Assembly: GCA_944324685.1 (NCBI GenBank) | Contig: CALUXG010000046.1 | Location: forward strand, 1-55,526 | Source of the DNA: an uncultured Elusimicrobiales bacterium | GTDB taxonomy: Bacteria; Elusimicrobiota; Elusimicrobia; Elusimicrobiales; Elusimicrobiaceae | Length of the DNA stretch: 55,526 nucleotides | Reading direction: 5' to 3' | Shown: piece after piece, positions 55,248-55,526 of the stretch | Position numbering within the stretch: position 1 is the first letter of the stretch | Layout: every line of letters begins with the position of its first letter | Translations under genes and position numbers: made by a program | The notes under the pieces: model-generated | Told to the model about the DNA's origin: nothing | The model's input: only the letters and a program-made list of their open reading frames with translations | The model's database searches: none

Positions 55248-55320
55248 GCCGAGATAGCTCAACTGGCAGAGCAACGGTTTTGTAAACCGTAGGTTGTGGG
55301 TTCGACTCCCATTCTCGGCT
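55248..55320 (+). tRNA. tRNA-Thr (anticodon TGT)
   Basis: A 73-nt class I tRNA. Acceptor GCCGAGA pairs with TCTCGGC. Anticodon stem ACGGT/ACCGT holds loop TTTGTAA (anticodon TGT, reading ACA). T arm GTGGG-TTCGACT-CCCAT. Discriminator T; no encoded CCA. The D arm is normal (GCTC...GAGC). Confidence 0.95.
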
Positions 55321-55344
55321 TAATTTATTCGCAAAGCGAATAAA
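55304..55344 (+). repeat. Direct repeat of the tRNA-Thr 3' end, copy 1
   Basis: A 41-bp sequence running from the T loop through the acceptor 3' strand and the adjacent TTTATTCGC-aaa-GCGAATAAA hairpin. It recurs exactly at 55486-55526. Confidence 0.95.
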
Positions 55345-55485
55345 AGCCGGAAAGCGGGCAAACTGCTTTGCCCGCGTTGGGAGGCGAAGACCGGAGCGAT
55401 GTTTTTGTTTGAGGCCTTAGGCCGAAAGGCAAAAACCGCGAGGTCCGGCCCGAAGGAAAATTCCGTCAGGAATTTTACCGCAGGG
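55345..55485 (+). other. Hairpin-rich spacer between tRNA 3'-end copies
   Basis: No gene. Several palindromes: GCGGGCAAA-ctgc-TTTGCCCGC (55354-55375), TTTTTG...GGCC-tta-GGCC...CAAAAA (about 55401-55435) and AAAATTCC-gtca-GGAATTTT (55457-55476). Confidence 0.8.
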
Positions 55486-55526
55486 GACTCCCATTCTCGG
55501 CTTAATTTATTCGCAAAGCGAATAAA
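55486..55526 (+). repeat. Direct repeat of the tRNA-Thr 3' end, copy 2 (runs to the window edge)
   Basis: Identical over 41 bp to 55304-55344 at a distance of 182 bp. The 5' half of the tRNA is missing, so this is not a second tRNA gene. The repeat may continue past the window. Confidence 0.95.

Follow-up and report, generated by a model that had tools for sequence, protein, structure and literature searches.

Gene-less hairpin elements behind tRNA genes of Elusimicrobiota and Patescibacteria, an apparently undescribed family

Introduction

What has copied the 3′ end of a tRNA gene to the far side of a short, hairpin-rich stretch of DNA? This question is raised by the end of contig CALUXG010000046.1 from an uncultured Elusimicrobiales bacterium (family Elusimicrobiaceae; assembly GCA_944324685.1), which in its full length of 55,526 nucleotides is the window analysed here (contig C46 of the 1.4 Mb genome G000). 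The gene for tRNA-Thr(tgt) occupies positions 55248–55320 of the forward strand, where it is detected by ARAGORN and by Rfam model RF00005 (71.5 bits), and it is left intact. A stretch of 41 nucleotides that begins within its T-loop, directly past TTC, and runs from 55304 to 55344 returns letter for letter at 55486–55526, giving a period of 182 bp. This recurrence had been reported in an original prediction made from the letters alone and is present as described. The same prediction called the spacer gene-less and rich in palindromes, which agrees with our finding that no gene is seen in it and that its predicted fold (−83.4 kcal/mol, compared with −57.5 kcal/mol for shuffled sequences, z −6.0) is far more stable than chance.

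We consider, with a probability of roughly 0.6, that a non-coding and non-autonomous mobile element has inserted in the T-loop of this tRNA-Thr gene, duplicating the target stretch and probably being guided there by base pairing. The evidence comes from a family of related units with a fixed T-loop junction, target duplications matched by empty sites, arrays, conserved hairpins and antisense segments that match the host tRNA, and it suggests in turn that targeting works by base pairing and that the guide is rewritten.

The locus beyond the contig end

The window had been predicted to end inside the second copy of the repeat, which is correct, but that copy is longer than can be seen there. The last 127 bases of C46 recur as the opening 127 bases of contig C49, in which the second tail runs on for another 25 bases (AGCCGGAAAGCGGGCAAACTGCTTT) before giving way to unique DNA. 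A contig from a second genome (G010:C55) covers the complete Thr(tgt) locus uninterrupted and with identical sequence. As G010 holds the entire locus in one contig, the second copy must be real, and a truncated second unit begins with it. A chance repeat is excluded because the same core recurs in G000 behind the genes for tRNA-Arg(ccg), tRNA-Leu(gag) and tRNA-Thr(cgt), each followed, where the contig allows, by a copy of the 3′ tail of its own tRNA. In practice these units also split assemblies at tRNA genes, as at the end of C46.

Distribution of the family

DNA searches recovered the family from 60 of the 61 genomes of the genus. A covariance model extended it to 101 of 295 Elusimicrobiota genomes, spread over 20 of 90 genera and patchy among sister species, and to 27 of 287 genomes in the phylum of G310 (Parcubacteria, Patescibacteria). 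Within genus g2, G078 and G141 have many copies, and G068, G072, G075 and G106 have none. Nine genomes reached through loci from outside Elusimicrobiota or from unnamed bacteria, mostly Patescibacteria, hold between 2 and 24 matches each. A pattern scan of the GTDB collection returned at least 118 stretches, mostly from gut Elusimicrobiaceae, together with matches in Paceibacterota, Kaiserbacteria, Nomurabacteria, Zambryskibacteria and Parcubacteria.

The link to tRNA genes is close and oriented. Among 159 units, 123 lie 40–140 nt behind a tRNA 3′ end, and at least 28 tRNA types are covered. For 96 units from other genomes with enough flanking sequence, a tRNA 3′ end lies 30–150 nt upstream in 77 cases on the same strand and in none on the opposite strand, and most of the others are later units or else larger inserts that follow a tRNA on the same strand. 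One unit (L058) follows a degenerate tRNA. Occupancy differs between genomes, from four of about 44 tRNA genes in G000 and nine of 44 in G030, counting full cores, to about 24 of the 40 examined in G310 (Parcubacteria LiPW_30), where some units have other core variants. The proposal of a mobile hairpin element carrying the tRNA tail holds. At two further loci (L097 and L151) the unit stands behind a tRNA 3′ half, the gene being apparently interrupted by an intron and missed by ARAGORN.

In Rfam, even at relaxed thresholds, nothing but the tRNA rose above its gathering score, the best other match on the unit being IMES-4 with 21.1 of the 48 bits needed; the units are therefore probably mostly unannotated. 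Phage and plasmid collections gave no match to the unit, and six pattern matches in viral_contigs proved to be chance matches. A search of open-access papers in PMC found no description of such a family; one article on tRNA fragments (PMC9897764) covers integrase islands and CRISPR (clustered regularly interspaced short palindromic repeats) spacers. It appears, then, that tRNA-tail-associated hairpin elements of two phyla form an undescribed family. What goes beyond the original prediction is the split antisense copy of the unit's own tRNA tail, the large number of tRNAs, the second phylum and a clean empty site.

Insertion at a fixed base of the T-loop

Comparison of the orthologous Thr(tgt) loci of 66 genomes found occupied, empty and tandem states. 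At locus L263 a 147-bp unit sits between exact 28-bp duplications that begin at TTC^GACTCC, and when its flanks are joined they align base for base with the empty site L261, across the tRNA and for 11 nt beyond. Throughout the family the junction is constant in the T-loop (TT^C) and the length of the duplication varies, with many of 13–57 nt. The element inserts at a fixed T-loop base with a long target duplication.

Copy number at one locus can differ between neighbouring species, with two units at L257 and one at L258. Arrays of at least two units occur in genomes G042, G044 and G046 and at loci L049, L065 and L108, so that the tandem tRNA-tail array, one of the possibilities originally raised, does exist. 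In two units (L256 and L270) a foreign 5′ part is joined to the same 3′ part. Where the two tails differ, the differences are commonest near tRNA positions 59–61, in the T-loop and T-stem, as if mutated or re-made at insertion.

Anatomy of the unit

Without its duplicated tail the element is about 140–160 bp long, and its parts follow a constant order. In the window, all on the forward strand, tail 1 (55304–55344) is the first copy of the duplicated stretch, running from the T-loop to past the tRNA end, and its start is the one fixed in other copies. It contains a terminator-like hairpin, TTATTCGC-AAA-GCGAATAA (55325–55343), that is present in most units. An anti-acceptor segment, AGCCGG (55345–55350), follows; it is complementary to the 3′ acceptor strand of the tRNA (CTCGGCT), and complementarity at this position is above chance across the family. 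Hairpin H1 (55354–55375) has a conserved loop with CTGC and stems whose pairs are 95% Watson-Crick over 64 distinct stem sequences; its position is the boundary between the acceptor complement and the T-stem complement. Next comes the anti-T-arm (anti-T) segment TTGGGAGGCGAAG (55377–55389), complementary with one mismatch to the T-loop and T-stem (TTCGACTCCCA). The conserved core is hairpin P2 (AGCGATGTTTTTG...CAAAAACCGCGAG, 55390–55444), which matches covariance model R1 with E = 4.5e-26, and hairpin P3 (55449–55485), with a GTCA loop, closes the element, whose 3′ terminus (GCAGGG) adjoins tail 2. Tail 2 (55486–55526), cut by the contig end, passes in C49 into the truncated second unit.

Both P2 and P3 show covariation, and P2 is short in the Patescibacteria subtypes. 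Over 51 divergent cores 92.6% of cells are paired, and double changes number 243, compared with 65 in shuffled alignments. The folding molecule may be either RNA or DNA, because G-U pairs are rare in the stems, yet a G-T pair in P3 is kept in 29 of 35 Patescibacteria matches as an exception. Four loci (L028, L054, L059 and L082) carry a structured insert of about 250–300 bp, with ends TGGGTTGGCAAGG and CCTTGCCAACCCA, between the anti-T segment and P2.

Antisense segments and the host tRNA

The antisense segments fit the tRNA behind which the unit stands. For the anti-T segment, 7.9 of 10 positions fit its own tRNA and 6.0 fit other tRNAs (p = 4e-37), and for the anti-acceptor segment the values are 5.5 of 8 compared with 4.3 (p = 1e-24). 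Ranked against 49 tails, the unit's own tail was within the best three for 84 of 101 units.

Nearest copies behind different tRNAs differ in their antisense segments. All four pairs of cores that are at least 95% identical and stand behind different tRNAs share a 7-nt T-loop seed, where 10% would be expected. In G000 the Thr and Arg copies have near-identical cores and the same seed; their anti-acceptor segments differ, each fitting its tRNA, and the anti-T segments, which are distinguished by a T-to-C change, likewise fit the respective tRNAs. Together with the shared seeds, these copies suggest that the target is chosen through the seed and that the antisense segments are re-made. Two other ideas were abandoned. 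One is that the antisense segment was perfected step by step once the unit had inserted; this lacks support, as antisense fit does not track the preservation of tail 2. The other, a tRNA-like molecule closed by tail 2, was rejected since, in units with differing tails, tail 1 is the better match for anti-T in 63 cases and tail 2 in 2. In G310 a variant without H1 (L335, G310:C7:223100-223900) stands behind tRNA-Arg(tcg), with the tail, a perfect 24-bp inverted copy of it across a 2-nt loop, and the core.

A possible route of insertion

We suggest that the element, moving as RNA or as folded single-stranded DNA, would pair its anti-T segment with the T-arm of a tRNA gene, a seed of about 7–9 nt (TTCRANTCC) choosing the target. 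Insertion would begin at a nick in the T-loop, to which the element would be joined by its conserved 3′ end. The stretch downstream of the T-loop is duplicated; by this duplication the tRNA stays whole through tail 1, with a second tail beyond the element. During insertion or shortly afterwards the antisense segments would be re-made to fit the new host tRNA, one way being to copy tail 1 by fold-back, and arrays may arise by repeated insertion or by unequal exchange between tails.

In its most general form the proposal is that gene-less elements in two phyla pick tRNA genes by pairing between guide and T-arm and, on inserting, rewrite the guide for the tRNA at hand, which keeps it always matched to the current host gene. 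We hold this tentatively, at somewhat less than even odds. If it is true, an antisense segment matched to its own site would represent a novel mode of DNA targeting, and tRNA genes would have a new parasite, in Elusimicrobiota and Patescibacteria, groups with little genetics. The fixed target base, the natural guide–target pairs and the clean occupied and empty sites make guide copying from the target directly testable.

Several observations weigh against insertion of a guided mobile element. The only clean occupied and empty pair aligned in detail is L263 and L261, and L263 itself has no anti-acceptor segment. Tail 2 is decayed in many units, and the fit of the antisense segments shows no correlation with its preservation. 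For one unit (L095) no tRNA could be recognised upstream. Stem pairs do not favour RNA, with 18 G-T cells against 17 A-C cells. No tested mobility enzyme consistently accompanies the family: the reverse transcriptase domain RVT_1 occurs in 10 of 61 genomes, and the four loci inspected are diversity-generating retroelement (DGR)-like or retron-like; Y1_Tnp (PF01797) is found in 13 of 66 genomes, although nearly all carry copies; and the IS110 transposase (PF01548) exceeds its cut-off in none of 20. The units read hold neither an integrase nor an open reading frame. Movement by a resident reverse transcriptase (as a retroposon), by IS200/IS605 or IS110 enzymes or by an integrase was accordingly rejected, none of these being universal. 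The mover would be either an enzyme outside those tested or the machinery with which the host replicates and repairs its DNA. A group I intron, with anti-T as its internal guide, was also dropped; there was no intron match in Rfam and tail 2 is often decayed. As to the reverse transcriptase genes of the genus (L165–L168), three lie near DGR-like variable proteins and one is retron-like.

Alternative explanations

The strongest competitor, though unlikely, is a DNA palindromic repeat in the style of repetitive extragenic palindromes (REP) or miniature inverted-repeat transposable elements (MITE). Either an unrelated transposase or switching of the replication template at tRNA hairpins would have spread it, and the antisense match would then be no guide; tail 1 and its complement would form one long quasi-palindrome kept perfect by template switching. 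The scarcity of G-U pairs, the lack of strand bias, the perfect inverted tail that G310 has behind Arg(tcg), the way anti-T follows tail 1 and not tail 2, and complementarity that often extends through the terminator hairpin are all consistent with this. However, the closest copies behind different tRNAs have the T-loop seed in common, loop and core letters are conserved across two phyla, P3 retains its G-T pair, the junction falls at the same T-loop base every time, and no terminal inverted repeats were seen in the unit.

Less probable still is a functional RNA of the host, tRNA-like or regulatory, acquired tRNA by tRNA and acting on the processing or level of its own tRNA. Strong covariation, a stable fold, units at more than half of the tRNAs examined in the Parcubacteria genome, and the placement of H1 where the D and anticodon arms of a tRNA would be speak for such a role. 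It is difficult to reconcile with the patchy occurrence among sister species and among the tRNAs of one genome, with the existence of empty sites, or with a terminator-like hairpin between tRNA and unit, and decay of tail 2 disrupts a tRNA-like closure.

The att-type (attachment-site) duplication first suggested would make the unit a remnant or satellite of an element whose tyrosine integrase uses the tRNA tail. A duplication of the tRNA 3′ end from the T-loop is typical of integrase sites and a direct repeat does flank the unit, but one core stands behind 28 tRNA types with different tails, whereas integration at an att site would require the same tail throughout. G000 has two tyrosine recombinases only, both Xer-sized, and none was found in the incomplete genome G303, which has seven copies of the unit. 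In its classical form this explanation is unsupported and very improbable.

An assembly artefact at the contig end, which had been named as the refuting case, is itself already refuted: although the window breaks off within the second copy and the 127 bp that C46 and C49 share resemble an assembler k-mer break, G010:C55 has the same sequence and spacing, C49 continues the repeat and, in other genomes, long contigs enclose related arrays.

Relation to known systems

Small bacterial palindromic repeats include REP and bacterial interspersed mosaic elements (BIME), MITEs and the Rickettsia palindromic elements. Like the unit, these are about 100–200 bp long, gene-less, hairpin-rich, present in many copies and patchy; unlike them, the unit targets a fixed T-loop base with long and variable duplications, has segments antisense to the host tRNA and forms tandem arrays of tail and unit. 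The definition of a MITE does not apply, as the ends of L263 (GGAGC... / ...AAAGG) are not inverted repeats and the duplications are long and variable rather than short and fixed.

Eukaryotic short interspersed nuclear elements (SINEs) and tRNA-targeting retroposons of the long interspersed nuclear element (LINE) type, such as Dictyostelium TRE5-A, are also non-autonomous with variable target duplications and tRNA-linked targets, and the chimeric 5′ parts of L256 and L270 on a conserved 3′ end add to the likeness. In contrast, the unit is bacterial, lacks a universal reverse transcriptase, sits within the tRNA gene instead of upstream of it and has guide-like antisense segments. Bridge-RNA elements (IS110/IS1111) share a structured non-coding part and split target-complementary segments, but both segments of the unit match one strand, the target duplication is long and no transposase passed the cut-off in the 20 genomes.

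Casposons integrate at the 3′ ends of tRNA genes and duplicate their target, and the repeat-unit-repeat arrays resemble CRISPR growth during adaptation, whereas the unit is a single conserved hairpin element and neither a Cas1-encoding transposon nor a variable spacer. Genomic islands integrated at tRNA genes by a tyrosine integrase have the duplicated tRNA 3′ end as a direct repeat; they differ in that the unit has no integrase, uses one core for many tRNA tails and measures 150 bp rather than many kb.

Other small elements behind tRNA genes

A second repeat family, with motif CAGTATACACTCGG, lies behind tRNA-Val(cac) at L170 (G000:C34:59700-60600) and is tandem in G000. Similar sequences occur at L254, L256 and L270, and at L254 the repeat is inserted behind a tRNA-Thr with a 22-bp direct repeat. 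The ends of tRNA genes seem to be preferred sites for small elements of more than one kind. Behind tRNA-Glu(ttc), at L174 (G000:C43:1-900), the order is tail, terminator, a contiguous antisense copy of the tail, hairpins and a second tail, with an unrelated core and no H1.
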